Shown here: in pieces, positions 6 through 19,690 of the stretch
Numbering within the stretch: position 1 is the first letter of the stretch
Layout: each line of letters begins with the position of its first letter
Assembly: GCA_017302795.1 (NCBI GenBank)
Contig: JAFLCB010000002.1
Coordinates: 186,001 to 250,000 of the forward strand
DNA length: 64,000 nucleotides
Reading direction: 5' to 3'
Source of the DNA: Deltaproteobacteria bacterium
GTDB taxonomy: Bacteria > Bdellovibrionota > Bdellovibrionia > Bdellovibrionales > JAMPXM01
The notes under the pieces: model-generated
The model's database searches: none
Seen by the model: only the letters and a program-made list of their open reading frames with translations
Told to the model about the DNA's origin: nothing
Position numbers and translations under genes: made by a program

Positions 6-968
6 GTGATTACAAGCTTAGGACTTAACGCTACGGATGGCGGAACGAATCGGCGAACCTTGAACGCAACATGCTTAAAACTAAATACTGATTCACAGCA
101 GGCTGTCTCAAAGCATCACGGCAGATTTGCGGGTGACGCACGCGTTGGCGCTCTGATCGCGCTGACTTTCATGGTCATCTTAGTATCGGTTGCACCGAAT
201 GCGCGCGCGGCCGATGAATTTGAATTTAGCGCGGAAATCTACACTCAAACTATGTATCGCCCAGAAGAGCGTCTTGATCGTCCACATGGAGTTTTTCACG
301 AAACACGTTTGCGATCGTCCTTGGCTTTGAATGCTGATTCTAAGATAAAATTTGATTTCGGCTCTTACCTCTTGGCTGAGTGGAGCGAAGCCAGCCAGGC
401 TTCTTCTAGCTTTACGAATACCTCACTATCGCCTTTCGTAGGATCCCACTGGAGAAATTCTTGGAACCTGCAATCCACTTTAGGTTCGTCAACGGCGTCT
501 TTAACCCTTCAATTCGAGGGACGCTATCGAGAACCGGTCAGTGACTTCAGTCGGTCGACAGGCGTTAAAGGGTGGGATCCACGCACGGGTGCAGCGGTTG
601 GCGTTTGGCATCAGTTCAATTCAAACTTCTTCTTAGATATCTACGCGGATCTTTTTTACGCTCCGAAATATTCGGCTGCGCCGATGTCGACGGCGATTGC
701 GCGCGTCGGAAACCGACATACTTTTTCGGCAACGTCTGAGACCTCGTGGAAACCGTTTGGCGATCTTTACTTCGAGCTTTTCCAGCAGAATGCAATGAAC
801 ATTGAACTGGGAACGAAACGGTCTGAAGGTCGCGCAGGTGTTGCCATTGGTGCTTCCCGCGAATCGGGTACCGTGCAGCTTCGGGTCTACAATGGTTGGC
901 CGCTGGAATCCGATCGCGATTCGCGGTCTCGCCTAGAGGCGTTGCTAGTCGGAGGTTTCTCGCTATGA
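6..968 (+). CDS. exported beta-rich protein, probable outer-membrane component of the polysaccharide cluster
   Basis: I do not recognise a named family. The hydrophobic stretch around residues 50-65, ending in a small-residue cleavage-like site (ARA|AD), looks like a signal peptide with a very long n-region. The rest alternates polar and aromatic residues in strand-like blocks, as in a small outer-membrane barrel, and ends in FSL. The first in-frame start in the window is GTG at 6; TTG at 60 is an alternative, and the frame stays open to the window edge, so the true start is uncertain. The stop overlaps the glycosyltransferase start as ATGA (965-968), so the two are translationally coupled. 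By analogy with the NfrA/NfrB pair of E. coli it could be the outer-membrane partner that exports the polymer, but I see no TPR region, so this is inference. Confidence 0.6.
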   Translation: MITSLGLNATDGGTNRRTLNATCLKLNTDSQQAVSKHHGRFAGDARVGALIALTFMVILVSVAPNARAADEFEFSAEIYTQTMYRPEERLDRPHGVFHETRLRSSLALNADSKIKFDFGSYLLAEWSEASQASSSFTNTSLSPFVGSHWRNSWNLQSTLGSSTASLTLQFEGRYREPVSDFSRSTGVKGWDPRTGAAVGVWHQFNSNFFLDIYADLFYAPKYSAAPMSTAIARVGNRHTFSATSETSWKPFGDLYFELFQQNAMNIELGTKRSEGRAGVAIGASRESGTVQLRVYNGWPLESDRDSRSRLEALLVGGFSL

Positions 969-4284: not shown

Positions 4285-4287
4285 GCC

Positions 4288-6018
4288 ATGTATCACATCG
4301 CACCTAAACTTCTTTTGGCATTTGTCGCATTTGCGACGTTTGTTTCGGCGCCTGCGGAAGCGGCGCTCAATCTGCCGCCACCACAAGAGCTATTGAAGAA
4401 AGCGGGCCAGGATCGTCGTACACTTCGAGAAGCGCTGTTGGATATTCAGCAAAATGTCTCGGAGATGCGCGATCCCGCTACCTTTGACAGTTACTTCTCA
4501 CTGCTCGCAGAGCTCGAAGTGCTTGCGGTAAAAACTCAGCTGAACGCCATTCTACCAAAAGCGGTCGAACAGACAGGCCTCAAGATGGTGGCACACGGCA
4601 TTCGCTGGTTAGATCTTTCTCAGCGACCGCTGTCGGATGCTCTCTACTATCTTCGTTACGCGGACGGCGATGTGATGAGCCGCTTTGTTGCGGAAACTGA
4701 AATTCAAGTTCGCAGTCTCAAGGAAGACAAACGTCTTCAAAACGTCGCCGTCAACCTTGAGGGCATGTTGCCGACATTGGAAAAAAAGCTCGAGCAACGG
4801 CGCGATGTGCGCGTATCTTTTCGAGAGCTTCTATCTTCGATTGCCATTCGATTCTTGCGTCAAGCAAGTCTGAATAATCAGGAAGCTGGATTTTGGATTG
4901 CGAAAATCTCGATGCCGACAGCCTATTCTGAATACATTTCTTCCCTGACGGATGAATTACTCGAATCAAAGCCAACTGATTCTGTGACTTTGGCGCGTGT
5001 TTCTTCGCGCCTCCATGAACTTGGAAAAAAGATTGCGGTTGAAACTTACCCGCTTCCTGCTTACATCGCATCTTCTTGGGGCGATACTGCCTTAGAGCTG
5101 ATTCTTCGATCCGTTCAGGGAGAGCGAACGTTTGCGAAGGGCGAGTTTGAATCGTTAATTGGAATGATGCGTTCGAGACAGCTTCAAGGCGCAGCCGGTC
5201 AATGGCTTTCGACGGAACGTCTTCCGTCGACGAATTACGCCTCTCATTATTTGGAAATTTCGAATCTCTTGATTGCTAAGCTTCGCGCCGTGGGACTTTC
5301 GAAAGAAGCTGGCGAAGTCGCGAAACACGTTTCGCAGATGGCAGCACCCATTCAAGGAGCGAAAACCAACCTCGAGGGCCTCTATACTTTGAAGGCCGAA
5401 GACGGATCTGGATTTACATTTTCCGTAATTCGCGCACGTTCCAATTTGATTTACGCAACATTGGAAATGGAACAAGGGGCTGTCACATTAGGTTTTTTCA
5501 ATGTCACCTATGATGTCGAACGCCAGAAGTATTTCGCCAGTCAGCGCGAACCAGATTTAGATTCGACAGGAAATCCCACGATTTCATTCGTCGTCTCTGA
5601 AAAAGGAGAGATCGAAATCGAAGTGCCAATTGCGTCCGTAAGTTGGAGAAAGTTGAAGGGCAAGAAGACTGCCGAGTACACCAATTTCTTGGATGATCAG
5701 TCGACAGTCGCTAGTTCAACCGATGGAGAGTGGGAAGGAGAAATGCAGTTCAAAAGTATGCTTTGGACGGTTCGCCTGGTGGTCTCGAAATTCGGCGGCT
5801 ATTCAATTGGACGTTTGATATCGAATCAGGGAATTGCGATCGACTTTCAAATAGGTAATACAGGGGAAAATGGGGTCATCTATTTGACCACGGGAAAGCT
5901 TCCGCATTCCGGTTGGGTTCATTTGCGCGCCGTTCGACGCGGGGACTTTCTTGAGGGTCAAATGATCGCAGCTGCTGGAACAACGGTTCCATTCTTCAAA
6001 TTAAAGAAGGTGAAGTAG
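4288..6018 (+). CDS. exported protein of unknown function in the polysaccharide cluster
   Basis: A 576-residue protein with a clear signal peptide (residues 1-26, cleavage after AEA). Residues about 30-350 are rich in amphipathic helices. Residues about 360-576 are beta-rich and may form two similar sandwich domains, since a ValTrp/Gly pattern recurs (for example near 430-450 and 480-500). I do not recognise a family. It starts four bases after the upstream stop and ends directly against the next gene (TAG then ATG), so it is part of the same transcription unit. Position and export suggest a periplasmic scaffold or carbohydrate-binding partner of the synthase, deacetylase and glycosidase. Confidence 0.7.
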   Translation: MYHIAPKLLLAFVAFATFVSAPAEAALNLPPPQELLKKAGQDRRTLREALLDIQQNVSEMRDPATFDSYFSLLAELEVLAVKTQLNAILPKAVEQTGLKMVAHGIRWLDLSQRPLSDALYYLRYADGDVMSRFVAETEIQVRSLKEDKRLQNVAVNLEGMLPTLEKKLEQRRDVRVSFRELLSSIAIRFLRQASLNNQEAGFWIAKISMPTAYSEYISSLTDELLESKPTDSVTLARVSSRLHELGKKIAVETYPLPAYIASSWGDTALELILRSVQGERTFAKGEFESLIGMMRSRQLQGAAGQWLSTERLPSTNYASHYLEISNLLIAKLRAVGLSKEAGEVAKHVSQMAAPIQGAKTNLEGLYTLKAEDGSGFTFSVIRARSNLIYATLEMEQGAVTLGFFNVTYDVERQKYFASQREPDLDSTGNPTISFVVSEKGEIEIEVPIASVSWRKLKGKKTAEYTNFLDDQSTVASSTDGEWEGEMQFKSMLWTVRLVVSKFGGYSIGRLISNQGIAIDFQIGNTGENGVIYLTTGKLPHSGWVHLRAVRRGDFLEGQMIAAAGTTVPFFKLKKVK

Positions 6019-7317
6019 ATGATCGGCTCAAATTTCTTCAAAATCATAGCGATCGCAACGACCATCGCGATGGCGCCCGCAGCGTCGATGGCCGCACCAC
6101 CCGTGACTGCGGCCAAAGTGAAAGGTTTTAACTTATCTGAGAGTGATGGTTTCGTTTACGATGCTGTCACGACGGGTGTGCCAACTCCTGCGATGATCGC
6201 GGTGGATGAGGCAAAACGCCTTGGGTCGAACCACGTGATCCTCAATGTTCGAGGAAAAATGGTCGGACCGACTTCCACCGAAGTTGTGCCGATGACGGCA
6301 CCCGCCGAGCGATCGAACGAAGCGCGACGAATCGCCCGACTAGCCACTTACATTCGGTCAAAAGGAATGACGGTGGGAATGCGTCCCATCTTTTTCGTGT
6401 TCGGACCGAATGGAGAATTTCCTTATACCGAAAAATTTGCCAACGGGACCTCAAAAGTTTGGTGGCATGGCAACATTCAGCCGGCGGATCCAGATCGATG
6501 GTTCGAAAGTTTTAGAACCTTTCTTGATCAGTACATCACGGTCGCTCGCCTAGCGAAGGTCGAGGAGTTTACAATCGCGGCCGAGCTTTACTCGATGACC
6601 GTGGGTATCGAAGATCAATGGAAGGCGCAGCCTTACGGTTTTCCGGGCCGGTGGCTTGAGCTTTTGAGATACGTTCGAGGTAAACTTCCGGATGCACGAT
6701 TGATGTACGATATTAACTTCACCGACGATTCGAATACGGAGTCTGGATTCGCCAGGTCCGGTGGTGAGCTCGAACGATGGCGCTATCGACTTGCTGATCT
6801 TGCTAATCCAACTCGGCCAGAGGAACTGAAAATCTGGAAAGACCTCGTTCAATTTTGGACTGAACTGGATGCTGTGGGACTGGACATGTATCGTAGTCTG
6901 GCATCTTCGAAAGATGTTTTGGCGACGAATCGTGCCGATCTTACTCGTCAGCTAAAAACAAGAACGGATGTTTACACAACTCAATTAGATACGGCTTTGC
7001 TTGAAATTTCGCTCGTGACGAACGTCGAAAAGCAAATCATTCTCAAAGAAGTCGGCTATCGCTCGATTGAGAAAGGTTTTATCGAACCCTTCAATTATGC
7101 GAGTGCCAGTGGTGTTGTGAATATTGATCACCAAGCTGCAGCGTATGATGCATTGCTTGCGTCTTTCGCTCGATCTAACTGGGCGTGGTTTCAAGGAGTC
7201 GTATTCTGGGATATTCAGGTCGACCCAAGCAAAAAAGGCCTCAAAGATCTTGGTTTTTCGCCGATTGGCAAACCTCAGACCGAATCGGTTGTGATCGATT
7301 ATTTCAAAACCATTTAA
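6019..7317 (+). CDS. GH113-like exported glycosidase
   Basis: A 432-residue protein with a signal peptide (about 1-25) followed by a single TIM-barrel domain. The layout matches the GH113 (mannanase-like) family: KGFNLSE at the first strand, an acid/base-type glutamate at 189 in the motif TIAAEL, and a nucleophile-type glutamate at 344 in KEVGYRS. The start directly abuts the preceding stop. Similar glycosidase-like proteins often accompany exopolysaccharide synthases, where they trim or process the polymer. I infer the same role here, in the periplasm or at the surface. The substrate cannot be told from sequence; mannan is known for some family members only. Confidence 0.75.
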   Translation: MIGSNFFKIIAIATTIAMAPAASMAAPPVTAAKVKGFNLSESDGFVYDAVTTGVPTPAMIAVDEAKRLGSNHVILNVRGKMVGPTSTEVVPMTAPAERSNEARRIARLATYIRSKGMTVGMRPIFFVFGPNGEFPYTEKFANGTSKVWWHGNIQPADPDRWFESFRTFLDQYITVARLAKVEEFTIAAELYSMTVGIEDQWKAQPYGFPGRWLELLRYVRGKLPDARLMYDINFTDDSNTESGFARSGGELERWRYRLADLANPTRPEELKIWKDLVQFWTELDAVGLDMYRSLASSKDVLATNRADLTRQLKTRTDVYTTQLDTALLEISLVTNVEKQIILKEVGYRSIEKGFIEPFNYASASGVVNIDHQAAAYDALLASFARSNWAWFQGVVFWDIQVDPSKKGLKDLGFSPIGKPQTESVVIDYFKTI

Positions 7318-7325
7318 TTTGGCGT

Positions 7326-8051
7326 GTGTCAGCAGTTTTCATACTGCTGATTGCAGGGTTGGCTGTTTTGAGTGCGTGTACATCGGCGCCTAAGTTAAAA
7401 GAGGTTAGATTCTCGAAAGAGGAAGCGGTTCCGCTAGATGCGACTCAATGGAAAATTACCTATGACGGTGATGGTAAAGCCGAGTTTCAAAAAAGCGGTA
7501 TTTTTTTGCAGCCTCGGGTGCCTAAGCATGATCAGGATACGATTGCCGCACTTGTCGTCTCGAGATTCCTTCCTCGACAAAATGATTTTCGACTGCGTGT
7601 TCGATATCTCGTCGAGCGCCAGCTTCGGCGGAATGAAGGAACAAGTGAGTCGGCTCCGAGGCCTTGGGAGGTTTTTTGGTTATTCTGGGGATATCGTGAA
7701 GGCCGGTCTCCGGCATTAAAAGAAACAAATTATTTTATTTTGAAGTCCAACGGTGTCGAGCTTGGTCGCGCGTTTGAGGAAACCGAACAAACCTTTTTGG
7801 CAACTGCAACCACCCCGAAGCTCGCTCTCGCGCATTCTCATGAACTTGTATTGACTCGAATTTCCAACCGAGTCTCGGTCGACGTCGATGGTATATCCGC
7901 GCTAGAGTTTTCAAATAGCGAATGGCCTCAAGCATTTTATGAGGCAAATGGCAAAATAGGGCTCTATGTCGAGGACGCCGGAGCCGTGGTTCAGGGCGTG
8001 TGGATTTCTTATCCCGAAGCGCAGTTTTCGGCGTCTCACCGTACACCGTGA
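7326..8051 (+). CDS. lipoprotein with a beta-sandwich (DUF1080/LamG-like) domain
   Basis: About 241 residues. The chosen start is GTG at 7326, just after the glycosidase stop at 7317. The frame is open further upstream, but that would overlap the glycosidase by more than 100 bases. A hydrophobic leader ends in LSAC, a good lipobox. The mature part alternates strands with Trp and Phe and includes phrases such as NYFILKSNG and VDVDGISALEF, which resemble the concanavalin-like DUF1080/3-keto-disaccharide hydrolase fold. I cannot assign catalysis. It is the last gene of the polysaccharide cluster and probably a lipid-anchored polymer-binding or processing factor. No Shine-Dalgarno sequence is obvious, so the exact start is uncertain. 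Confidence 0.65.
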   Translation: MSAVFILLIAGLAVLSACTSAPKLKEVRFSKEEAVPLDATQWKITYDGDGKAEFQKSGIFLQPRVPKHDQDTIAALVVSRFLPRQNDFRLRVRYLVERQLRRNEGTSESAPRPWEVFWLFWGYREGRSPALKETNYFILKSNGVELGRAFEETEQTFLATATTPKLALAHSHELVLTRISNRVSVDVDGISALEFSNSEWPQAFYEANGKIGLYVEDAGAVVQGVWISYPEAQFSASHRTP

Positions 8052-8235: not shown

Positions 8236-9627
8236 TTGGCGGGCATTCGCTTCGGATCTATCAACACAGGGCTTCCGCCGAATATCGTCGATCAGTTGAT
8301 CGAGGCGGAGCGTATTCCTATGAAGCAGCTTGAAGCTCGCAAAATGAAATCCGAAGAAAAAATGAAGCTCGTTGAAGATCTGCAAACTAAAGTTGGCGAT
8401 ATCCGCAAAAATCTTGGTGAACTCGCTAACACTCGTGGCTTTACAGACGTGAAACTTACCTCTGGTGATCCAAGCGTCATTAGCGGAACAGTTGACCCGG
8501 CGTCGTACACGCCAGGTAATTGGAACATTGAAGTCATGCAGTTGGCACAAAAAGCCTCGGTGAAAACAAATGGCTTTCCCGACAAAGATAAAACTGAAAT
8601 TGGAATTGGTTATTTTCGATTTCAAACTCCAGACGGCAACAAAGACGTCTATATCAACAATAATAACAACACTCTTGAAGGCGCAGCCAAAGCCATCAAC
8701 CAAGCGGGTATCGGCGTGCGTGCAAGTGTGATCAACGATCGAAAAGATGTGGATAGCCCGTGGAAGCTTGTACTTTCCTCGGATGGTGTCGGTACAGATA
8801 AGTCGGTCGAGTATCCACGTCTTTATTTTTTAGATGGTGATCAGGACATGTACTTCGACAGTGAAGTCGAAGCTAAAAACGGAGTCGTTAAAGTCGATGG
8901 CTTTGAAATGGAAATTGGCGACAATGTTTTGAAAGATGTCATTCCCGGAGTGACACTTGAGCTCAAGCAAGCTTCGCCAGGGCGGGCCGTCAACCTTACG
9001 GTCAAGGAAGATTTGGAAGTTGTCAGCGGCAAGATCAAAGGTTTCGTCGATGCGTTGAACAGTGTTCTTGGGTTCATTCAAACTCAAAATAAAATGACGA
9101 AAGAGACCGACACCACCAAAACGTTAGGTGGCGATAGTATCTTGCGGTCTGTCGAATCTCGAGTGCGGCAAATGGTTCAGAATCCGCAGTATGGCCTAAA
9201 AGGAAGTGTCCGCTCGTTGAATCAATTGGGAATTACATTCAACCGCGCAGGTACGTTGGATTTTGATCAAAAGAAATTCAATGCAGCTTTGGCCGCTAAT
9301 CCAGAACACGTGCAGGAGTTTTTTGCGGGCGACGGGTTCTCGACGGGATTCATCGCAGCGGTTCGGCGTGAAGTGACAAATCTCACGAATCCTGGGTTTG
9401 GTCCGTTGAACAATCGCGCACGAGGGCTGAAGACACAAATCGATCAAATGGATCAGAGAATTGAACAAAAAGAACGGCAGCTCGTAAAGAAAGAAGAGCA
9501 ACTCCGAAACAAGTTCGCCAAGCTCGAAGAAACTATGTCCCGTATCAAGGGGCAGGGAGCGCAGGTTTCGGCAATCGCTAGCGGCGGATTTGGTGGCGGC
9601 GGAGGCGGCGGTGGATTTGGAGTTTAA
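8236..9627 (+). CDS. fliD: flagellar hook-associated protein 2 (filament cap)
   Basis: 463 residues from TTG 8236, chosen for its strong Shine-Dalgarno and because the product then begins AGIRFGS..GLPPNIVDQLI, a typical FliD N-terminus. The FliD_N region covers about residues 1-110 and FliD_C about 225-440. Coiled-coil segments near 20-60 and 395-440 are the terminal helices that pack into the cap base. FliD caps the growing flagellar filament and helps flagellin fold there. An unusual Gly-rich tail (residues about 450-463) follows the C-terminal coil and is absent from well-known FliD proteins. The gene precedes fliS, the usual arrangement. Confidence 0.95.
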   Translation: MAGIRFGSINTGLPPNIVDQLIEAERIPMKQLEARKMKSEEKMKLVEDLQTKVGDIRKNLGELANTRGFTDVKLTSGDPSVISGTVDPASYTPGNWNIEVMQLAQKASVKTNGFPDKDKTEIGIGYFRFQTPDGNKDVYINNNNNTLEGAAKAINQAGIGVRASVINDRKDVDSPWKLVLSSDGVGTDKSVEYPRLYFLDGDQDMYFDSEVEAKNGVVKVDGFEMEIGDNVLKDVIPGVTLELKQASPGRAVNLTVKEDLEVVSGKIKGFVDALNSVLGFIQTQNKMTKETDTTKTLGGDSILRSVESRVRQMVQNPQYGLKGSVRSLNQLGITFNRAGTLDFDQKKFNAALAANPEHVQEFFAGDGFSTGFIAAVRREVTNLTNPGFGPLNNRARGLKTQIDQMDQRIEQKERQLVKKEEQLRNKFAKLEETMSRIKGQGAQVSAIASGGFGGGGGGGGFGV

Positions 9628-9681: not shown

Positions 9682-10077
9682 ATGAAAAACGCTTATCAGA
9701 AGTACAAAACGACGTCGATTCAAAGTGCAGGACGCGAAAAGCTGTTGTTGATGATGTACGAAGGTGCCATCAAATTTACGAAGCTTGGGATTCAAGCGGC
9801 GGAAGAGAAGCGGATTGCTGATCGTGGTATGAATATTGGGCGAGCGTACGACATTGTTATGGAGCTCAATAATACGCTTGATCATAGCGTCGGTGGCGAT
9901 ATCTCAAAAAATCTCGAGCAGTTGTATATGTACATCACTGAGCTCTACACAAAAGGCAATATTAGTGGCAGCCCCGAGCCCCTTCGCGAAGCATTGAAGC
10001 TTCTCGAAACCCTGTATGACGGGTGGCAAAAGGCAGTCGAACAATTGAAGAAAAACCAAGGCGAAAAAGTCGGCTAA
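9682..10077 (+). CDS. fliS: flagellin export chaperone FliS
   Basis: 131 residues, the normal FliS length, all helical. Recognisable features are the N-terminal NAYQKYKTTSIQSA segment, then LLLMMYEGAIKF and a helix bearing LNNTLD. FliS binds the C-terminal helix of flagellin in the cytosol and prevents early polymerisation before export. It follows fliD after a 54-base gap and has a GGGA-rich ribosome-binding region. Confidence 0.95.
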   Translation: MKNAYQKYKTTSIQSAGREKLLLMMYEGAIKFTKLGIQAAEEKRIADRGMNIGRAYDIVMELNNTLDHSVGGDISKNLEQLYMYITELYTKGNISGSPEPLREALKLLETLYDGWQKAVEQLKKNQGEKVG

Positions 10078-10104: not shown

Positions 10105-10563
10105 ATGCAGAATTCATCGGAAGGTTCTAACCAGGGCGCGGCGCAAAAATTGATGGAGCTCTTGGACGAGAAGAACCAGTATTTAGAACGCTTCTTCGAA
10201 CTCAATGAGTCGGAGCTGCTAAATTTTGCTGATGGATATTTCGATAACGTCGAATCCTTCTATCAAGCTCGAGAAAAAATCCTCGATATCGTTCGTTGTA
10301 TCGATGCATTGGTCGACGACGAGGTGGCCCTCATTTCTGAAGACGGCGTATCGCAGGCGATGCGCACAGAGATGAAAGATCTCATGGCGCAAAAGGATAA
10401 GCTTGCGAAGCAAATTCTTGCGCAGGACCTTCAAGTCCTCGCGGCCATCGAGACAGAGAAGTCCAATATCATTCGCGAATTGAAAAGTACCGGACAGAGC
10501 AGAAAAGCGGTTGCGGCTTATAGGTCTGGTCCAGCCGGTCGGCAAATCGACGAAGAAGTCTAG
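10105..10563 (+). CDS. FliT/FlgN-like small helical flagellar protein
   Basis: 152 residues, almost entirely helical and rich in Glu, Lys and Leu, with a coiled-coil look (residues about 15-140). Its position directly after fliS, behind a strong AGGAGGG ribosome-binding site, is where FliT or FlgN-type export chaperones are usually found. Sequence resemblance alone is weak, so the chaperone role comes from context. It is the last gene before the terminator at 10685. Confidence 0.65.
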   Translation: MQNSSEGSNQGAAQKLMELLDEKNQYLERFFELNESELLNFADGYFDNVESFYQAREKILDIVRCIDALVDDEVALISEDGVSQAMRTEMKDLMAQKDKLAKQILAQDLQVLAAIETEKSNIIRELKSTGQSRKAVAAYRSGPAGRQIDEEV

Positions 10564-10684: not shown

Positions 10685-10716
10685 AAAAGACTCGACTTCG
10701 ATCGAGTCTTTTTTTT
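10685..10716 (+). terminator. intrinsic terminator after the fliD-fliS unit
   Basis: An 11-bp perfect stem, AAAAGACTCGA with TCGAGTCTTTT around a six-base loop, runs directly into a run of T (to 10716). It separates the fliD operon from the next one. Confidence 0.9.
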
Positions 10717-10737: not shown

Positions 10738-10753
10738 TGGCACCCCCATTGCA
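10738..10753 (+). promoter_or_regulatory. sigma-54 (RpoN) promoter
   Basis: TGGCACCCCCATTGCA has the invariant GG (10739-10740) and GC (10751-10752) at the exact -24/-12 spacing and matches the RpoN consensus TGGCAC-N5-TTGCW completely. It lies 65 bases before the TPR gene at 10818 with nothing else between. Sigma-54 promoters need an enhancer-binding activator, for which the inverted repeats at 10563-10603 are candidate sites. Confidence 0.85.
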
Positions 10754-10817
10754 AACCTGAGAATGCAGAAGGTAGCAGATTTGCACTTCAGGATGAAAGT
10801 GCGAGAGGGGATCCAGG

Positions 10818-11858
10818 ATGGATATGCACTCACGAGAGCTTCAAAATGAAACACGATCGATCACGGTTCCGGGCCTTCAGACAAAAGTGCCGGTCGAGAG
10901 TTCTCTGCTTGTTCGTCCCATTGAGCGAGCGAGTGAAGCGATCAAAGAGTTTGATTCAGAGCTTGTGACCGCGTGGACTCAACACGCCACGGTACTAATC
11001 AAACACCGGGAATTCAAAACCGCCCACACGTTACTGCGGCACTCACTGGCTAAGGAACCACGAAATATTCCTGCGATTTCGCTTTTGGCGATTTGCCTAG
11101 AGAAGTCAGAAAAATGGGAAGAAGCCGTCAAGTGTCGTCGTGCACTCGTCCGGCTAAGTCCGACGGTAGAAAATAGAATCGACCTCGCGAACCTTTACTA
11201 TGCGCTTGAGGACGACAACCAAGCGCTCCTCTCATATCAAGAAATTCTTCACAGTGATGTCATCCCCGAGACTCGGGCGTTTGAGATCTTTAAAAACATG
11301 GGAAACATACTAGTTCGAAAAGGCGATTTTGAGGCCGCAGAGGATTGCTACAATCGCGCCTTTCTTGTCGACTCAAAATCGGATGCGTTGCTTGTGAACT
11401 TCGGGACGTTGGAAATCAATCGAGACAACTTGGAAGCGGCAACCGAACGCTTCCGCTCGGCTTTACTCATCAACGACCGAAACGATCGAGCGTGGGTCGG
11501 TTTGGCCTTGGCACACCGCTCGCGTGGCGACTTTGAGCTTTCTTGGGCAAATCTCGAACGAGCTCTTGATTTGAATCCGGAAAACCGAACCGCATTGAAA
11601 CTGTTGGTCGAATGGGGCGTTCGAGACGGCCGAGTTCAAGCTGCGAGCCTGCGCTTAGAAAGTTACTTGGCTCTTGACGGTGAAGACGCAGAGATGGCGT
11701 TTGCATTTGCCAAATGCCTTACGTTGACCGGGCATTTCAATGAAGCGCTGCTTGAATGCGAACGCGTCGTAGCACTCGACCCCGAGCAGGAGGAAGCGCT
11801 CCGATTGCGCCGGGTTTTGGCTGAACGCATAGTTTCAGAAAGCGAAACGCCGGCGTGA
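10818..11858 (+). CDS. TPR repeat protein, first gene of the sigma-54 operon
   Basis: 346 residues built largely of tetratricopeptide repeats from about residue 45 to 335. Typical helix pairs include KTAHTLLRHSLAKEPRN, FEAAEDCYNRAFLVD and LSWANLERALDLNPEN. There is no signal peptide, so it acts in the cytosol as a protein-binding scaffold. The start ATG 10818 follows a GGGATCCAGG ribosome-binding region. It is the first gene after the RpoN promoter and its stop overlaps the next start. TPR proteins commonly accompany glycosyltransferases in flagellin and surface glycosylation loci; a role in presenting the acceptor protein is plausible but inferred. Confidence 0.85.
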   Translation: MDMHSRELQNETRSITVPGLQTKVPVESSLLVRPIERASEAIKEFDSELVTAWTQHATVLIKHREFKTAHTLLRHSLAKEPRNIPAISLLAICLEKSEKWEEAVKCRRALVRLSPTVENRIDLANLYYALEDDNQALLSYQEILHSDVIPETRAFEIFKNMGNILVRKGDFEAAEDCYNRAFLVDSKSDALLVNFGTLEINRDNLEAATERFRSALLINDRNDRAWVGLALAHRSRGDFELSWANLERALDLNPENRTALKLLVEWGVRDGRVQAASLRLESYLALDGEDAEMAFAFAKCLTLTGHFNEALLECERVVALDPEQEEALRLRRVLAERIVSESETPA

Positions 11859-12508
11859 ATACACATATCGAGCGAAGCCGGAACGGGCACGAAGTACTTC
11901 ACGTCGACGGCAAGGCTACGGCTTCGACAATTGATCCTGTAAAAGAAGCGACGGCATGGATTGCCTCAACCTTTTCCTTTTCCGCTATGGAGAATGACGA
12001 AACGCTTGTCGTGATTGGTGCGGGCTCTGGCTATCATATTGAGGCTCTTCGGGAGCACACGCTGAAAAAAATCGTCGTGATCGACACTTGCCCCGCTTCA
12101 ATTGAATTCGTACAGCGCCGGTTGTTTCGACTCAACCAGATCAGTTACATTGAGTTGAAACGCGGAACGACTTTTACGGAGTTCTTCCAGCGAAACGATG
12201 TTGTTGAATGGGTCTTTGAGCCATTCACACTTCTACGCCACCGGTCGTCGATCGTTCGCAATCCAGATCTTTCAAAAGTGGAAGAATGCCTCGTAGGCAG
12301 GTCCATTGAAGCCTTTCGCGCGCAATTAGAAGCTCGTCCCTCAATTGCTTCGGCCCTTAATTATGGCCGCCTCAAAAAATTGGCAGAAGTGAAGCTGTCC
12401 ACCAACGGATTAGTTTCCGTTCGAGATCTTACTTCGGTATGGGAAGTTTCGTCGGAGCCCTCGAATGAACGACGTCTACTTCGGGTGCTCGAGGAGCTTG
12501 TACGATGA
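11855..12508 (+). CDS. Rossmann-fold protein resembling the N-terminal part of MAF flagellin glycosyltransferases
   Basis: 217 residues from GTG 11855 (overlap GTGA with the TPR gene). The central segment has a nucleotide- or cofactor-binding style VVIGAGSGYHIEAL (residues about 49-62) followed by KIVVIDTCPASIEFV. This pattern is characteristic of the region before the catalytic domain in motility accessory factor (MAF/DUF115) proteins. The catalytic domain itself is missing, as the protein is less than half the family's length. It may be a stand-alone partner of the glycosyltransferases that follow. The assignment rests on motif resemblance and on the flagellar context. Confidence 0.55.
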   Translation: MNTHIERSRNGHEVLHVDGKATASTIDPVKEATAWIASTFSFSAMENDETLVVIGAGSGYHIEALREHTLKKIVVIDTCPASIEFVQRRLFRLNQISYIELKRGTTFTEFFQRNDVVEWVFEPFTLLRHRSSIVRNPDLSKVEECLVGRSIEAFRAQLEARPSIASALNYGRLKKLAEVKLSTNGLVSVRDLTSVWEVSSEPSNERRLLRVLEELVR

Positions 12509-14262
12509 AGATCTTGGTCGTGAATCTCTTGCGTCTCGGTGATGTGATTTCGATGGCGCCTGCATTGAAAGCGCTTAGAATGGCGCAGCCAAACGCACAA
12601 ATAGATCTCCTCGTGAACGCTGGAGTTGAGACGGTAACGCCAATTATTCCTGGGATCAGTCAAGTTCATGTATTCGAGCGCACTCGAATGCAGTCAGCCC
12701 TCGTGGATGGAAGTCGACCCATGTTCGAATCCTTTGATGTGCTAGGGCGTTTGGTCGAGCGTCTTTCAGAGGAAAAGTATGATGTTCTATATAACTTTAC
12801 CCACAATCGGCTGTCCGGTTGGCTTTGCGGTTTGATTCCGGCTGGTAAGAAAATCGGCTTAGCGCTGGATGGGGCGGGCGGTGTTTCGTTCGGTTCCGCG
12901 TGGTTTCGCCATCTCAATCAACAAGTCGATTTCGAAGAAGCGCAATGCTTTCATCATTCGGACGTTTTCTTTGCAGCGGTGGGCGGGTTGGCTGTGCAAC
13001 GTGAGCAAGCACTTTCCGACCGTCGAGTGCTTGATGGCGTCCTGTGTGAGACGACCAAAGGGCGTTCAGAGGCAACCGTCCTTTTAAAAAGCGTGTCAGC
13101 GACGATGACCGGGGAACGTTCGCCATTGGTCCTCATGCAGATTTCAACCAGTGATCGAAAGAAAGAATGGGGTGACCAACAGTTTCGAACGTTGGCGCGC
13201 CATCTGTTAAATCGGCACAGCAACGCGACCATCTTTGTTCTTGGAGCAAGCAGCGAGGAAACGAGAATTCAAAACTTCTGCCGATCCGTCGAGAGCGATC
13301 AAGATCGCTTGATTCCAGCTATTTGCTCGCTGGAGGCGGTTGTCAGTCTCCTGGAGAGTGCTGACGTGCTGATCACGGGTGATACGTCGATCAAACATAT
13401 AGCTTCAGCGAGTACTGCTCGGGTGATTGAGCTTGCAGTTGGTAGTTCGGATCCATTTCGTACCGGGCCTTGGAAGTCAGGAGATGTCGTGATCGCCGGT
13501 CGCGAGGCTTGTCGGCCATGTGGACACTCGGAAGGGTGTCATCGTGAATCACACTTTTGTGCAACTGCCATCGATGTCGAAGAAGTTGCGGTCATTGTGG
13601 ACTCTTATATTTTGGAGCCCGAGACTGTTGCGAAAGCACGTGCAAGCATCGTTGAAAAGTTTGACGTATTTGTTGTCGATCGAAGTGAAGGCCTTGTGCA
13701 ACTGAACCGTCTGAACGGGCCAGGCGTCAAGCACGGCGCGTCCGATCGTGAGATTGCCGTCAGTGTCGAAAGAACTGCGCGCAGACTTATTCTGGAATCA
13801 AAAGACGGCCGGCTTGATCGAATGACGATGGGCTCAGAAATCCGCTTTGCTTACTTAGCAATCAAACAGAAATTTCCGCACTCGGCCGTCTTGGATTTTC
13901 GCCATTCGTTAAACTCGGCTGATATCACATTGAGGCACTCCGATGGAATGGTGCGGTCGCTTCGGTTGCAACTAGATCGCGTGAAGGAGTCAATTCAAGA
14001 TCCGAAGCGTCTTCATGAATTGGTTTCGTCGATCGCAGTTATGCGCAGCCGACTTGGAGCAAGCCCCTGGACGGCATTCATTGTCGAGCCGCTCTTGAGT
14101 GTCTTGGAAGATGATAGGTCGGCGCCGTTCACGCGCTATCGGAGGCTTGCCGACACGGTCGGTGATCTGGAGCTACGAATTGAAATGGCGCTCAAGCTGA
14201 TTCGCGGCCTCGAAATTGAAATCGAAAATGAATTGGAAAGTGATTTAGACAACGAATTGTAG
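12505..14262 (+). CDS. GT9 (heptosyltransferase-like) glycosyltransferase with C-terminal extension
   Basis: 585 residues. The N-terminus ILVVNLLRLGDVISMAPAL is the classic GT9 start, and the second half of the fold carries VLITGDTSIKHIASA, the GT9 sugar-nucleotide region. A small Cys/His cluster (CRPCGHSEGCH) follows near residue 340, where other GT9 enzymes have a similar CxPC loop. GT9 proteins are usually about 350 residues; here some 210 extra residues follow, largely helical and of unknown function. The gene overlaps the previous one by ATGA. GT9 enzymes usually build lipopolysaccharide core, but the operon context suggests glycosylation linked to flagella or the cell surface. Confidence 0.85.
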   Translation: MKILVVNLLRLGDVISMAPALKALRMAQPNAQIDLLVNAGVETVTPIIPGISQVHVFERTRMQSALVDGSRPMFESFDVLGRLVERLSEEKYDVLYNFTHNRLSGWLCGLIPAGKKIGLALDGAGGVSFGSAWFRHLNQQVDFEEAQCFHHSDVFFAAVGGLAVQREQALSDRRVLDGVLCETTKGRSEATVLLKSVSATMTGERSPLVLMQISTSDRKKEWGDQQFRTLARHLLNRHSNATIFVLGASSEETRIQNFCRSVESDQDRLIPAICSLEAVVSLLESADVLITGDTSIKHIASASTARVIELAVGSSDPFRTGPWKSGDVVIAGREACRPCGHSEGCHRESHFCATAIDVEEVAVIVDSYILEPETVAKARASIVEKFDVFVVDRSEGLVQLNRLNGPGVKHGASDREIAVSVERTARRLILESKDGRLDRMTMGSEIRFAYLAIKQKFPHSAVLDFRHSLNSADITLRHSDGMVRSLRLQLDRVKESIQDPKRLHELVSSIAVMRSRLGASPWTAFIVEPLLSVLEDDRSAPFTRYRRLADTVGDLELRIEMALKLIRGLEIEIENELESDLDNEL

Positions 14263-14290
14263 GACTGAATTTTTTCACTGGGAGACATTG

Positions 14291-14590
14291 ATGAAAAACA
14301 CTCAAAGTAAGTTTAATGCAGGTGGTGCTGCGATTGCGGTTCCTGTGACGGGTATGCCACCCAGCGCTTTAAGCAATGACTATAGCGGCAGTGTTTCTGC
14401 CGGTGAAGCAGCGGCGAACGCCCAGCTGGATCTGCTTGCGCGGTTAACCGAGGCTTCAGCCTTCATTCGTTCTGAAGCCGAGCAAATTAAAACAATTGGC
14501 CTGACAGATCGTTCAGTCAGACTTTTGCGAATTCTCGGAGAGGCCGTTGAAGAACAACGTCTCGGATTAGACGCGGAGCAAATGAAGTGA
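14291..14590 (+). CDS. small protein of unknown function between two glycosyltransferases
   Basis: 99 residues from ATG 14291, behind a GGGAGA ribosome-binding site. TTG at 14288 is also in frame but less likely. The N-terminal half is low-complexity and rich in Ala, Gly and Ser; the C-terminal half is a charged helix. There is no signal peptide and I recognise no family. Its stop overlaps the next gene's GTG start by four bases, so it is translated in step with the second glycosyltransferase. It could be an acceptor or regulatory subunit. Confidence 0.65.
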   Translation: MKNTQSKFNAGGAAIAVPVTGMPPSALSNDYSGSVSAGEAAANAQLDLLARLTEASAFIRSEAEQIKTIGLTDRSVRLLRILGEAVEEQRLGLDAEQMK

Positions 14591-16161
14591 AAATTCTTGT
14601 TCTTCAACTAGCAAGACTGGGCGACGTCTTTCAGACGTGGCCAGCTTTACGATCATTGAATCGAGCCGGGGCGGAAGTTCATCTTCTTGTTCGGCCTAGA
14701 TTTAAAGCGGCGACCAAAGGGCTGAAGGCTGTCCATCAAGTCCACGAGTTCAAAACAGACGAGGTTCTGGGGCCGGTTTTGAAACAAGGCAAGTCAGGTA
14801 TCGTAGGGTCAATGGCGGCTCTTGACCAACTGCTGGCGAAACTTGACGCCCACAAGTTCGACCGAATTATTAACTTATCTTTCTCGCCTCTTTCCTCCTG
14901 GATCACCTATGACCTCGAGATGCGATCCTTCCTTCGTGGGAAAGCTGCTATGAGCGTTGGTTATACGAGGCATGCAGACGGATCGCTGGCGATCCCAGAC
15001 GACGCATCCGCTTACTTCTTTGCGCAGGTTGGCTCGCGAAGTTCGGCATTTCCTGGCGAAGCACTCAATCGAATTCCACTCCCTCGATTGTTTTCGACGA
15101 TTGCATCTGCTGCTGTTCCGGGGTCGGAACTGAAGACTGAAGATTGGTGTGGCCCTGAAAACGAAGTTCGTCTTCCTGAGGCTCTGATCCCACGAGGAAG
15201 ATTTGTGGCAATCCATATCGGCGCAAGCACTGCAGACAAAACTTTGGATGCATCAAGCTGGTCCGAGATCATTCAGCGTCTTCATGGAAAAGTTAATTCA
15301 GATTTTGTCCTACTTGGTTCGTCGGAAGAACGGGAAAAGAGCGAAGAAATTTATAATCGGGCTCTTCAAGCGGGCCTGTCTCCGCGGCACATTGCGAATG
15401 CAGTCGGATGTACAAACGTTGAGGAGCTATTTCCGATTCTCAGGCGCGCCGAAGTTTTGATAGCAGGCGATAGTGCACTGATTCATGTCGCGTCGCTTGT
15501 TGGTACCAAGGTGTTGAATCTTTCCTCTCGATCAGTTTCTCATTGGGAGACCGGCCCGTTATCGTCCGGCAGTCGAATTATTGTTTACGGGGGTGCCGCG
15601 CCTACAATCGATATTGTGATTCAAGAGGCTGTCGCAATGATGGCTGGCGAATCAAAGACGGCGGCCGATCGGACAGTTAAAAGTCCCCTTGAAGAGATCC
15701 CAACGGTCACGACGGATGCCCATTCTGATTTTCTTTGGAGCTTTGTATCGGGCCTTTACATGGGAACCTCGTTCGGAATTCCGGAGGACTCCAAGTTTGC
15801 ACAAGCCGTGGAACAGTGGTTAGAGATTTCAGATGTCGAGCTAAGCCAATTAGAGGCGCTGTCGGCGATTTTCGCTCGCGCTGGAGATCATGACAATGAC
15901 GACGACGGAAAACGTCAGTCGGTAAAGACGATCGCCTCCGTTTTGAATCGGGTCGATGATCTCGCGAATTTAATCGTCGGTGCAGAGCCACGCTTGGCGC
16001 CTCTCGCGCGGTGGTTAAGCACGGAAAAATTGCGTTTGGGACCGCAGGCTCAGGCCGAGCTCGTGCAAAAGTACCTCGAAATCAATTTGCAGTTGCGCAC
16101 GGTGCTTGCGCGAATCAAGGAAACTGGGGAGGCGCATGATCGATTCGAATTGGGACTCTGA
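14587..16161 (+). CDS. second GT9 glycosyltransferase with C-terminal extension
   Basis: 524 residues from GTG 14587, with the same ILVLQLARLGDVFQTWPAL opening as the upstream GT9 protein and the matching VLIAGDSALIHVASL region near residue 295. Like its neighbour it carries about 170 additional residues past the normal end of the GT9 fold, mainly helical. The two are probably old paralogues with divergent specificity. Here the Cys/His cluster seen in the first enzyme is missing. It probably adds one sugar in the pathway encoded by this operon; donor and acceptor are unknown. Confidence 0.85.
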   Translation: MKILVLQLARLGDVFQTWPALRSLNRAGAEVHLLVRPRFKAATKGLKAVHQVHEFKTDEVLGPVLKQGKSGIVGSMAALDQLLAKLDAHKFDRIINLSFSPLSSWITYDLEMRSFLRGKAAMSVGYTRHADGSLAIPDDASAYFFAQVGSRSSAFPGEALNRIPLPRLFSTIASAAVPGSELKTEDWCGPENEVRLPEALIPRGRFVAIHIGASTADKTLDASSWSEIIQRLHGKVNSDFVLLGSSEEREKSEEIYNRALQAGLSPRHIANAVGCTNVEELFPILRRAEVLIAGDSALIHVASLVGTKVLNLSSRSVSHWETGPLSSGSRIIVYGGAAPTIDIVIQEAVAMMAGESKTAADRTVKSPLEEIPTVTTDAHSDFLWSFVSGLYMGTSFGIPEDSKFAQAVEQWLEISDVELSQLEALSAIFARAGDHDNDDDGKRQSVKTIASVLNRVDDLANLIVGAEPRLAPLARWLSTEKLRLGPQAQAELVQKYLEINLQLRTVLARIKETGEAHDRFELGL

Positions 16162-16750
16162 CCAGGTGGAGTCGCAGTTTGTCGGCTGCGAAACCGTCAG
16201 AGACGTAATTATTTTTCTAGAATCGCAAGCCGCAGCTCGCGGAGAAGTGATTTGTGAAATTCGTTTGAACGGGCATCTGCTTCAAGAGGAGGACGAAACC
16301 CGTTATGCCAATGATCCTCGATCGGCGATCAGAGCACTTTCCATTCGTTGTGACCGGCCGGAACACCTCATCGGGCAGGCCTTGAAATCTGCACTTAGCT
16401 TTATTCCTTTGCTGACCCAAGCGACAACTGAAACTGCAAAGCTCTTTCGAGAAGGCGAAATTCATAAAGCCTCTGAGCAGTTCAATGAAGCGCTGCAGGG
16501 CTGTCAGTGGTTTGTCGAGACGGTCCATTCTGCACGTGGAGCAGCTTCAGGTATGGGCACGGCCGTTACGAGCGCGGAACGCTGGCATGAGGCGGAAAAG
16601 TTACTTTTCCGAGTGGTTCGAGAATTAACCGAGACTTTCGACCGGAAAGACTATGTTTTAACGGCAGATGTCTTGGAATACGAGTTAACAGCCGCAATTG
16701 AAATGTGGCAGCCAGTCCTACAAAACGAGTCGTCGCGCCGTCCTGTTTGA
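16136..16750 (+). CDS. protein of unknown function in the glycosylation operon
   Basis: 204 residues from ATG 16136, chosen because GGGGAGG lies just before it; the reading frame is open further upstream. It overlaps the end of the second GT9 gene by 26 bases. The N-terminal 75 residues look like a small alpha/beta domain and the rest is helical. There is no signal peptide and no family I recognise. It sits between the glycosyltransferases and the histidine kinase, so it may link the two halves of the operon. Confidence 0.65.
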   Translation: MIDSNWDSDQVESQFVGCETVRDVIIFLESQAAARGEVICEIRLNGHLLQEEDETRYANDPRSAIRALSIRCDRPEHLIGQALKSALSFIPLLTQATTETAKLFREGEIHKASEQFNEALQGCQWFVETVHSARGAASGMGTAVTSAERWHEAEKLLFRVVRELTETFDRKDYVLTADVLEYELTAAIEMWQPVLQNESSRRPV

Positions 16751-16781
16751 CCGACCCTCAATCTGCGCCCAACATAGGATT

Positions 16782-18935
16782 GTGGCGAATGAAAATGACG
16801 GCGTAAGAAACTCTTTTCCTTTGGGTGGTATGGCTGCAATCAGCGCTGGCCCGGCGGCTGTTTTCTATGATGGGAATGATTCTGACGGAGTCATTCGCGA
16901 TGCCGCTTTTCGAACTCGCTCGACTGTCGTCAAACAGATGCCTGTTGATGAATTTCGTTTAGCTGCAGTATTCGTGTTCCTCGAACGACTTGATCTTGAG
17001 CAATGGCTAACGGAACTTCGGAATCGGGATTCATCTGTAGATATTTGGCTCATCCTTGGTCCCGAATCATCGCCGATGACGGCCTCAGCCATTGATAGGA
17101 AATTAGAACGCCGACAGGTTTTGGCTAAGTTGGGTCCAAAGCGAATTGCGAGCCTCATCAATCGCTATCGACTACGCGGCTGGATCAGCCGAGACGTAAA
17201 TGTTGTTCTAGCCGCGATACATACCGGAATTCAGAATCGGGATTCTCGGATCGGGTACGTAAAGAGTCGGAGAGAACTTGGAACAAGAAATCGGCAGCTT
17301 TACGATCTTCAAGAAAATCTAGAAAAAATCGTTACCGAACGCACCTCCTATTTGTCAGATGCCGAACGTGAATTGCATCGTCGAACTCAAGCAACGAGAG
17401 ATTTAGTGCGGTTCATTAAGGAACTGAGTCAGGCCGAGGCGATCGAGGAAGTCCTCCAGTTCCTGAGCAACGAAGTACGCAGCTTTCATGAAGTTCGTCC
17501 TCCGATGCTGGCGCTTGTTTCTCCCGAATTCGGAGCGAGACTTCACTTTCAACAAGTTCGGGCCGGTGGGGGCCAAAGGGCACATGAAAAAGGGTGGGGC
17601 TCAAAAACGGTCTCACGTCCGTGGCCAAGTCGATCAGCGATCCGAATTAACGAAGCTGAAGATCAAACCTACCTAGCGCAAGAGCTTGGGCGTCCGATCG
17701 CAAGAACCGTGGTAATCCCGCTAGGTAAAGATGCAAGAGTTAGCGCGAGCCCGCTTCTTATATTCGAGCATAGCTTTGATGAACTGAAAGCGGATCGATT
17801 TAAGAAATTTTTGATTCCTCGCCTTGAGCCCCTTTCAACGGCTCTCGACAGGGTCGTCATAAATCGTGAACTGATCGCAGCGTCTCGGTTGTGGGAATCC
17901 ACTTTCGACGGGATCTCTGACCCCATTGCAGTGGTGGGTACGAACTATGAAGTTTTGAGAATGAATCAGGCTTTTGCCAGATATCAATCACGAAACGAAG
18001 ATACCCGAAAAACTAAGTGCTATGAAATTTTCGCCGCGAGATCTGCGCCCTGCGATGGATGCGGCTTTTCGCAGGCCGATAAAACGCCTGAACACATAGA
18101 GTGGCAGGTGCGTCGCGGTGCCAATGTCTATGACGTCAGCGGCTACCCGATTCGCTTTCAAGAAGAGGCAAAGGTCAAAACCTTGATTCATCACTATTCG
18201 GACGTAACGAAGTCACTGGAACTGAAAGGCCATGCCTTCCAGGGTGAAAAAATGGCTGCGATCGGCTTGATGGCAGGTAATATTGCACACGAGTTAAACA
18301 ATCCATTGGCAGGTTTAAAATCCTTGGCCCAAGTGCTTCGCCAAGAAGCGAAGTATCCTGAAAGTGTAAAAAACGATCTCCATGAAATTGAAAACGCGGC
18401 CGAGCGATCCAGTGCAATCATTCGAGACCTCATGGAGTTTTCCAATGCGGAGGACCGCGCACGGGAAACGATTTCCCTTAATCAAATCGCGGACAGCGCA
18501 CTCAATATGGTAAAGACGGCGCTCCACGATCACCGGGTTGAGACCGATTGGGGCGACAATCAAGAAGTGATGGTGAACGTCGATCCCCATTTGCTTCAGC
18601 ATGTCGTTTTCAATATCGTAAACAACGCGTGTCAGGCTATGAAAGAACCGGGCGAAATTTCGATTCGGTCTTATCGTCAAACGCTTCCCGAAGGTGAACA
18701 TGCGATACTTGAAATCAGTGACACAGGCCCCGGCATTCCAAGTGAAATTCTTAGTCGAGTGTTCGAACCATTCTTCACAACCAAGGGCGCAGGCCAAGGC
18801 ACAGGCCTTGGATTAAGCATGAGTCGCTGGGTCGTGGAAACTTATCGAGGGAGAATTGAAGTTGAAAATCGAAAAGACTTAACGGGAGCAGTATTTAGAA
18901 TTTTACTACCCTTGGCGCCAAGGGGCGGAACATGA
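16782..18935 (+). CDS. soluble hybrid sensor histidine kinase (degenerate receiver, GAF-like, PAS, HisKA, HATPase)
   Basis: About 717 residues from GTG 16782, preceded by AGGA; the exact start is uncertain. No transmembrane segment is evident. In order I see a receiver-like domain lacking the phospho-acceptor signature (about 1-165), a coiled coil (about 170-215), a GAF-like domain (about 225-370), a PAS domain (about 375-480) with a CYE...PCDGC cysteine cluster, the H-box HELNNPLAGL with phospho-histidine 503, and the ATPase domain with DTGPGIP, FEPFFTTK and GTGLGLSMS. The cysteines in the PAS region could bind metal or sense redox state. The stop overlaps the response-regulator start, so the two form a kinase/receiver pair. 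Confidence 0.85.
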   Translation: MANENDGVRNSFPLGGMAAISAGPAAVFYDGNDSDGVIRDAAFRTRSTVVKQMPVDEFRLAAVFVFLERLDLEQWLTELRNRDSSVDIWLILGPESSPMTASAIDRKLERRQVLAKLGPKRIASLINRYRLRGWISRDVNVVLAAIHTGIQNRDSRIGYVKSRRELGTRNRQLYDLQENLEKIVTERTSYLSDAERELHRRTQATRDLVRFIKELSQAEAIEEVLQFLSNEVRSFHEVRPPMLALVSPEFGARLHFQQVRAGGGQRAHEKGWGSKTVSRPWPSRSAIRINEAEDQTYLAQELGRPIARTVVIPLGKDARVSASPLLIFEHSFDELKADRFKKFLIPRLEPLSTALDRVVINRELIAASRLWESTFDGISDPIAVVGTNYEVLRMNQAFARYQSRNEDTRKTKCYEIFAARSAPCDGCGFSQADKTPEHIEWQVRRGANVYDVSGYPIRFQEEAKVKTLIHHYSDVTKSLELKGHAFQGEKMAAIGLMAGNIAHELNNPLAGLKSLAQVLRQEAKYPESVKNDLHEIENAAERSSAIIRDLMEFSNAEDRARETISLNQIADSALNMVKTALHDHRVETDWGDNQEVMVNVDPHLLQHVVFNIVNNACQAMKEPGEISIRSYRQTLPEGEHAILEISDTGPGIPSEILSRVFEPFFTTKGAGQGTGLGLSMSRWVVETYRGRIEVENRKDLTGAVFRILLPLAPRGGT

Positions 18936-19312
18936 AGTTTCTTGTCATCGATGACGAACCGTTGGTTCGAAGATCGTTGGTGCGCGCAATCAAAGCCCGC
19001 GGCCACGAGTGTGCTGAGGCAGCTGATGGCGAAGACGGTCTCAAACTTTGGGAAAGCGAATCTCCACAAGGTGTTTTTGTGGATGTTTTGATGCCCGGTT
19101 TAAGTGGACCGGAAGTCGTTAGCCGAGCACGCGCCAATAGGGTCCTTCGTCCGTCTTTTATCGCGCTTATTTCGGCATTTTCGGGTGACGATAGCGAGAA
19201 ACTGGCGCTGGAGTGTGGAGCCGACATTTTTATTGGCAAACCGTTTGCTGATATTTTTCATGTCGTAGATCAGGTTGTTGATCGAGTTGTTAAACTATCT
19301 GGGGAACTTTAA
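18932..19312 (+). CDS. single-domain response regulator
   Basis: 126 residues, just a receiver domain. The acidic pair D7-D8, the phospho-acceptor D51 (FVDVLMPG), S81 in place of the usual Thr/Ser and K103 (GKPF) are all present, so it should accept phosphate. It overlaps the kinase gene by ATGA. With no output domain, it must act by binding another protein, as CheY does at the flagellar motor, or pass phosphate on. Its nearness to flagellar and glycosylation genes is suggestive only. Confidence 0.92.
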   Translation: MKFLVIDDEPLVRRSLVRAIKARGHECAEAADGEDGLKLWESESPQGVFVDVLMPGLSGPEVVSRARANRVLRPSFIALISAFSGDDSEKLALECGADIFIGKPFADIFHVVDQVVDRVVKLSGEL

Positions 19313-19315: not shown

Positions 19316-19690
19316 ATGCCAAGCAATTCGGTGAAAAAGGTAAAGCCCTACCCCTTTAAAGGTGAACTCAAAGAGTCGGCGACGGCTCGCCCTTGCCAAA
19401 TTGTCTTGCTGACTCAGTCGGCAGTGCTCTTAGATGTTGTCGGAGGGTCCGCTCAGCCAGGCGACAAAGTGGAAGTGTCTTTTCAAACCCCTGTTATAGG
19501 ACATTCGGTTCAATTTCATGGTCTTGTCGTGAAAGTCTATAACCAGCTCACCGGTTCGACGACGCCGCATGCCGAGGGTGCGTCGGGCACCATTCACAGA
19601 CTGGAAATCCATATCCGGTCAATTGACCCACTTTACCAGAACCATATTGCAACATTCCTAGATCAAATTGGTCAAAAGGCACGAACGTGA
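19316..19690 (+). CDS. small beta-rich protein, possibly a degenerate PilZ-like domain
   Basis: 124 residues, starting four bases after the response regulator stop. Strands with phrases such as GDKVEVSFQTP and HGLVVKVYN recall the PilZ beta-barrel, but the RxxxR and (D/N)xSxxG c-di-GMP-binding motifs are not present. I therefore cannot call it a c-di-GMP receptor. No signal peptide or membrane segment. It is co-oriented with the signalling pair and may belong with them. Confidence 0.6.
   Translation: MPSNSVKKVKPYPFKGELKESATARPCQIVLLTQSAVLLDVVGGSAQPGDKVEVSFQTPVIGHSVQFHGLVVKVYNQLTGSTTPHAEGASGTIHRLEIHIRSIDPLYQNHIATFLDQIGQKART

Follow-up and report, generated by a model that had tools for sequence, protein, structure and literature searches.

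Motility in several bacteria needs glycosylation of flagellin, and the best known enzymes for this modification are those of the Maf and FlmG kinds. FlmG of Caulobacter binds flagellins through its tetratricopeptide repeat (TPR) half (PMC7591256), and the N-terminal domain of Maf has a degenerate Rossmann-like fold with weak similarity to methyltransferases (PMC11339370). Furthermore, TibC, an enzyme with the fold of glycosyltransferase (GT) family 9 (GT9), O-heptosylates a secreted protein (PMC4358343). Here we describe a gene cassette downstream of the flagellar genes fliD, fliS and a fliT-like gene (fliDST) in a 64,000-nucleotide stretch of a genome of the order Bdellovibrionales (phylum Bdellovibrionota; contig JAFLCB010000002.1, positions 186,001 to 250,000, in the following called the window). 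The cassette encodes a TPR protein, a Rossmann-fold protein resembling the Maf N-terminal domain, two GT9 proteins (GT9a and GT9b), a 204-amino acid (aa) protein (p204), a histidine kinase (HK) and a response regulator (RR). We assume, with a probability of about one half, that the two GT9 proteins attach sugar to flagellin, or to some other exported filament protein, while it is still in the cytoplasm.

Conservation and layout of the locus

A near-identical gene order, FliD-FliS-FliT-TPR-Rossmann-GT9a-GT9b-p204-HK-RR-(PilZ)-rsmD-coaD-aspC, was found in some 35 loci from the sampled families of the order. Among 41 loci of the order the Rossmann-fold protein is present in all and p204 in 37, and a small 99-aa protein (6/41) is confined to two genera of the family, one of them that of the window. 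Other classes of Bdellovibrionota contain rearranged subsets of the cassette; of the 369 genomes searched in the phylum, 206 have p204, and in 20 loci outside the order it adjoins the flagellar cap and chaperone genes in every case where the contig extends far enough to show them. Furthermore, within the order the cassette is restricted to genomes with FliS, which is encoded by 85 of 99 relatives: 64 of these 85 contain p204, compared with 0 of 14 FliS-less genomes (Fisher 6e-8, not corrected for phylogeny). The FliS-less genomes also have no GT9a match, except for a single one, whose 348-aa reading frame has the length of a generic GT9. The gene set is conserved and not a chance arrangement. 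An earlier note on this DNA had proposed the flagellar link, which is borne out by the synteny with fliDST and the co-occurrence with FliS, and had called the gene combination unusual; the neighbourhood search of related genomes revealed it as the norm in the order.

In the window, the locus comprises the following features:

about 8245-9627, + strand: fliD, upstream of the cassette
9682-10077, + strand: fliS, between fliD and the fliT-like gene
10105-10563, + strand: fliT-like gene, 3' of fliS and 5' of the promoter (PF05400 with E 5e-5, under the cut-off)
10685-10716, + strand: terminator-like hairpin with T tract, AAAAGACTCGA-CTTCGA-TCGAGTCTTTTTTTT, 3' of fliT
10738-10752, + strand: predicted sigma-54 (-24/-12) promoter site TGGCACCCCCATTGC, judged by its sequence, its order-wide conservation and RpoN in the genome
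10818-11858, + strand: TPR protein, 346 aa (Pfam TPR_2, 3e-22)
11855-12508, + strand: Rossmann-fold protein, 217 aa (Maf_flag10_N, E 0.013), resembling the N-terminal domain of Maf and S-adenosylmethionine (SAM)-methyltransferases
12505-14262, + strand: GT9a, 585 aa (PF01075, 4.9e-22)
14291-14590, + strand: 99-aa protein, no Pfam match
14587-16161, + strand: GT9b, 524 aa (PF01075, 9e-13)
16136-16750, + strand: p204, small alpha/beta N-terminal domain and helical bundle, no named family
about 16782-18935, + strand: cytosolic HK (HATPase_c 6.6e-24, HisKA 2.3e-13), start codon uncertain
18932-19312, + strand: single-domain RR, 126 aa (Response_reg 1.8e-18, residues 4-106 of 126)
19316-19690, + strand: 124-aa protein, PilZ-like in some orthologs, no match in the window copy

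Neighbouring genes overlap at five junctions, four of which share 4 bp (11855, 12505, 14587 and 18932) and one 26 bp (16136), which agrees with the overlapping starts noted before. Gaps of 28 bp between GT9a and the 99-aa gene and of about 31 bp between p204 and the HK gene separate the remaining ones. The genes from TPR to RR appear to be mostly translationally coupled. The co-directional run continues past the RR with the 124-aa gene, followed by the closely spaced rsmD, coaD and aspC. An end of the system at 18935, as assumed earlier, cuts off the very receiver that was counted as part of it; the RR and the 124-aa gene reach to 19690. In a scan of named genomes the only contig matched was from 'Bdellovibrionota bacterium isolate KLAP46', whose GT9a copy is 61% identical.

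Gains and losses divide the locus into modules. Genus g15 has fliDST-TPR-HK-RR, and the Rossmann protein, GT9a, GT9b and p204 are all gone together. Family f12, which belongs to another class, has fliDST-Rossmann-GT9a-GT9b-p204-HK-RR without the TPR gene, and families f26 and f27 have fliDST-TPR-GT9b-p204, with HK/RR not detected. Conservation of the TPR gene 3' of fliT extends from the order to some of the phylum's other families.

GT9 proteins and their partners

With PF01075 scores of 78.9 bits for GT9a and 48.5 bits for GT9b, both proteins lie above the cut-off of 22 and belong to GT9. Their profiles align with the solved structures of WaaC, WaaF and 3tov; D13 corresponds to the catalytic base of WaaC and the conserved Lys precedes the donor site. 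In 37 aligned GT9a orthologs D13, K220, D293 and T294 are invariant, as are D13, K218 and D295 in 35 aligned GT9b orthologs, where D295-S296 forms the adenosine diphosphate (ADP)-site motif. These invariant active-site residues stand against a mean column identity of about 32-38% in the two alignments. The AlphaFold2 (AF2) model of GT9b (predicted local distance difference test, pLDDT, 92.8) consists of a GT-B core (1-355) and a five-helix C-terminal domain (378-523), and its residues 1-355 match WaaC/WaaF with a structural Z of 28-30, compared with 17.5 for TibC. Judged by fold and residues, both GT9 proteins are WaaC/WaaF-type GT-B enzymes with a predicted catalytic activity. GT9a scores far below the equivalog cut-offs of the lipopolysaccharide (LPS) heptosyltransferases TIGR02193 and TIGR02195 (86.1 vs 185.3 and 47.1 vs 134.6 bits), and GT9b scores lower. 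Ranks 7-9 of the GT9b fold search were 7wff, 9grx and 7f9o, a subunit with GT9 fold of the chloroplast NADH dehydrogenase-like-photosystem I (NDH-PSI) supercomplex.

The GT9 pair with C-terminal extensions described earlier was recovered: GT9a carries a conserved CxPC-HS-C-H-C four-Cys finger and an extension of about 200 aa, and GT9b the helical domain 378-523. When the C-terminal domains of these two proteins and of p204 were compared as whole profiles, no pair was significantly related, apart from a weak signal between that of GT9b and p204 (P 9e-4). In genus g22 the C-terminus of GT9b is fused to the last helices of p204 (L084:11195-12877, L062:7072-8733), which argues for a physical link between GT9b and p204. 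No Pfam or NCBIfam family was found for p204. Its AF2 model (pLDDT 95.7) shows the small alpha/beta domain and the helical bundle, and the fold search returned four-helix bundles of a generic kind, for the most part designed proteins; no hit had E<=0.001, and the N-terminal domain was barely covered. Therefore, we read no function from the fold of p204.

The claim of a short MAF-like protein finds weak support. Matches to Maf_flag10_N (PF20157) at E<=0.1 were obtained for 21 of 39 Rossmann orthologs, the best with 3.4e-6, mostly in the same register where analyzed in detail (profile about 102-150). Most of them lie below the Pfam cut-off, one ortholog reaching 24.1 bits against a cut-off of 23.5, and the similarity covers the N-terminal Maf domain only. 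Methyltransferase families score the Rossmann protein similarly to PF20157, and a search of PDB sequences with its profile did not return the structure of the Maf N-domain. The catalytic domain MAF_flag10 (PF01973) has no match in this genome nor in 95 of 99 relatives, and thus no rival flagellin glycosylator of the Maf type is visible.

At the GT9 position of some loci we found proteins of 366-495 aa without a match to the cassette profiles (L114:10788-12146, L130:8614-9978, L096:10201-11685, L118:4598-5695). The open reading frames between TPR and p204/HK in L114, L130 and L118 gave no significant GT9 profile match and no Pfam family in the two that were scanned, and the L096 protein has a weak GT9 profile signal.

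Seven Flagellin_N matches are located in the genome (C2:161151, 174137, 175377 and 181902; C3:26296, 27582 and 367837), one of which is probably flgL-like. The flagellins are short, with open frames of about 277-317 aa, and therefore have no large outer domains. Between flagellin genes and fliD, at 896-8051 of the window, lie polysaccharide-type genes, including those for a GT2-like transferase, a polysaccharide deacetylase-like protein and a UDP-N-acetylglucosamine 2-epimerase-like protein; L132:14821-18839 is a comparable stretch. Two related secreted glycoside-hydrolase-like proteins are encoded at 6019-7317 of the window and at L132:16300-17649.

Sigma-54 promoter and two-component genes

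The site TGGCACCCCCATTGC has the form TGGCAC-N5-TTGC and is located 65 bp 5' of the TPR ATG (10818). It is the single occurrence of TGGCAY-N5-TTGC in the window. Genome-wide, the exact TGGCAC-N5-TTGC is not enriched (9 occurrences vs 9 for the reversed control), and as the motif alone is therefore uninformative, we relied on position and conservation. In about 35 of 38 order loci, the interval from fliT to the TPR gene contains a site of the TGGCAY-N5-TTGC type, with a mean best promoter score of 13.2/14 on the coding strand vs 9.8 on the opposite strand. In a second set of loci, which includes lineages without GT genes, the site is present 3' of fliT in almost all loci of the order, usually as the single match per 20 kb, and both loci of the same class outside the order also carry it. 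In this set the site is mostly missing after fliT in the other classes of Bdellovibrionota, and sigma-54 control thus seems to be particular to this class. Further sites were noticed twice in the flagellar or neighbouring stretches that were read, one of them directly 5' of flgF-flgG-like genes (L131:4877).

The hairpin at 10685-10716 (-14.6 kcal/mol, z -3.39, none of 200 shuffles equally stable) together with its T tract is predicted to separate the sigma-54 site from fliDST. The genome encodes RpoN, and about 16 strong matches to sigma-54 activators are located elsewhere in it. With a conserved -24/-12 element and RpoN in place, the cassette can be regarded as a predicted sigma-54-dependent operon, as the earlier note had suggested.

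The same note had placed the operon under its own two-component control, for which we found no support. Domain search of the 126-aa RR identified a receiver only, with neither an output nor an AAA+ domain, and on its own it is unable to drive a sigma-54 promoter. A self-regulating two-component system for the sigma-54 promoter was rejected on the same ground, the RR having no AAA+ activation domain and the activators being encoded elsewhere. Moreover, HK/RR are kept where the GT genes were lost, and GT genes are kept where HK/RR were not detected; the two groups were lost or kept independently, and HK/RR therefore do not serve the GT genes as a dedicated controller. The cytosolic HK consists of a degenerate N-terminal receiver-like region, PAS, HisKA and HATPase domains. 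Its N-terminal region resembles a receiver minus the phospho-site, and the ortholog in L108, from the same class, retains a full receiver there; an ortholog N-terminus matches Response_reg with 6.8e-21. The ortholog of the 124-aa protein in L117 matches PilZ (2.4e-7).

Function of the cassette and comparison with known systems

In the reading that we consider most likely, a sigma-54 RNA polymerase, assisted by an activator encoded elsewhere, would transcribe the cassette separately from fliDST, switched on together with other flagellar genes. GT9a and GT9b would then use a nucleotide-sugar, in the simplest case an ADP-activated one, to glycosylate flagellin or some other exported filament protein, either ahead of its binding by FliS/FliT or during it, and the product would pass to the export gate. 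Holding or selecting the substrate may be the task of the TPR protein, p204, the Maf-N-like Rossmann protein and the GT9 extensions, among them the helical domain of GT9b; for the TPR protein this role is modelled on the TPR half of Caulobacter FlmG. Together with the PilZ-like protein, HK/RR would form a signalling module of their own within this flagellar locus. The genome encodes an HldE-type kinase domain (330.9 bits, just below the cut-off of 345).

Several observations weigh against glycosylation before export. HldE domain I was not seen in the cassette-bearing genome G085, so that ADP-heptose is not proven as donor, and gene neighbourhood does not prove the acceptor. Genus g15 is a flagellated lineage without the whole GT module, which therefore is not essential for the flagellum. 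Family f8 has, in two of its genera, GT9-like proteins at the cassette position whose active-site residues are lost or altered (L113:10257-11702, with D13 and GDTS lost; L116:4104-5609, with GDTS altered); these are likely pseudo-enzymes. The GT9 at this position is possibly degenerate or unrecognisable in f6 and f20, and in family f14 TPR and p204 are present while no GT can be recognised. Degenerate GT9 proteins, together with p204 and TPR proteins lacking a recognisable GT, suggest a partly non-catalytic role.

The latter findings also fit the idea that the GT9-fold proteins, p204 and the TPR protein are mainly non-catalytic chaperones or scaffolds for filament subunits, with the GT fold recruited for binding. 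The degenerate GT9 proteins of f8 sit at the same place, f14 keeps p204 and TPR without a GT, helical bundles are also present in export chaperones, and the chloroplast NDH subunit with GT9 fold is a possible precedent for a non-catalytic use of this fold. However, D13, the Lys and the D-T/S motif, needless for a pure scaffold, are invariant in 37 GT9a and 35 GT9b sequences, and we regard this explanation as unlikely. Bdellovibrio flagella are sheathed, and the GT9 proteins might act on LPS or a glycolipid, for example of the membrane sheath of the flagellum, instead of a protein. This would be in line with LPS heptosyltransferases as the closest solved relatives and with the absence of HldE also from some small FliS-less relatives. 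The C-terminal extensions, the coupling to TPR and p204, the invariant place beside export chaperones in FliS-bearing genomes only and the presence of other GT9 proteins of the LPS type elsewhere in the genome make an LPS or glycolipid substrate rather improbable. Finally, the genes for a GT2-like transferase and a polysaccharide deacetylase-like protein upstream of fliD in this genome would suit a general surface or exopolysaccharide operon with an incidental flagellar adjacency. These genes, however, lie outside the conserved neighbourhood of the cassette beyond the genus. The cassette itself comes after fliDST across the phylum and is missing from genomes without FliS; a polysaccharide operon is already disfavoured and seems highly improbable.

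Returning to glycosylation of a filament protein before export, we tentatively propose an extended form of it: a phylum-wide, GT9-based O-glycosylation of flagellin, possibly with heptose directly on flagellin or the cap protein, in which substrate recognition is split over the separate TPR, Maf-N-like and p204 proteins. It might represent a third architecture besides Maf and FlmG, which in some lineages may have decayed to a non-catalytic scaffold for filament subunits.

In Bdellovibrio bacteriovorus HD100 fliD is bd0611 and fliS is bd0612 (PMC9140294). Among the papers searched, none mentions Bd0613-Bd0615 nor, in a relevant context, Bd0616-Bd0621, and the counterpart genes downstream of bd0611/bd0612 make the prediction testable in a laboratory strain.

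The closest parallel in organization is FlmG, which combines a TPR part with a GT-B enzyme and modifies flagellins in the cytoplasm (PMC7591256); the counterpart in the cassette is predicted from the genes. FlmG is one fused chain that transfers pseudaminic acid, whereas the cassette has a separate TPR gene, two GT9 genes and further proteins. With Maf (PF01973/PF20157) the cassette shares the flagellar context and a helical C-terminal domain, which is a feature of Maf, too (PMC11339370), and one of its stand-alone proteins weakly resembles the N-terminal Rossmann domain. In contrast to Maf, the catalytic fold is GT9 GT-B, and the MAF_flag10 catalytic domain is absent from this genome. Bacterial autotransporter heptosyltransferases (BAHT) such as TibC (PMC4358343) have the heptosyltransferase-type GT-B fold, modify secreted proteins, as is predicted for the cassette enzymes, and carry a four-Cys finger, which in the cassette is found in GT9a. 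The spacing of the TibC finger is unlike that of GT9a, the substrates of BAHT are autotransporters, and GT9b is structurally closer to WaaC/WaaF than to TibC. In addition, the GT-B lobe of GT9a and GT9b begins at the N-terminus, leaving no N-terminal beta-barrel, and both fall outside the BAHT group. WaaC and WaaF resemble the cassette enzymes in fold, catalytic Asp13, Lys and ADP-site motif, and differ from them in that the latter have extra C-terminal domains of 150-200 aa and a flagellar neighbourhood.

A GT9 family is thus predicted for flagellin glycosylation throughout the phylum of the predatory Bdellovibrio, and p204, present in more than 200 of the 369 genomes, is a protein family without description found in the company of flagellar chaperone genes. 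As a flagellar modification locus the system is of a known kind; its enzyme family, its split architecture and the p204 family would be new if the function is confirmed.

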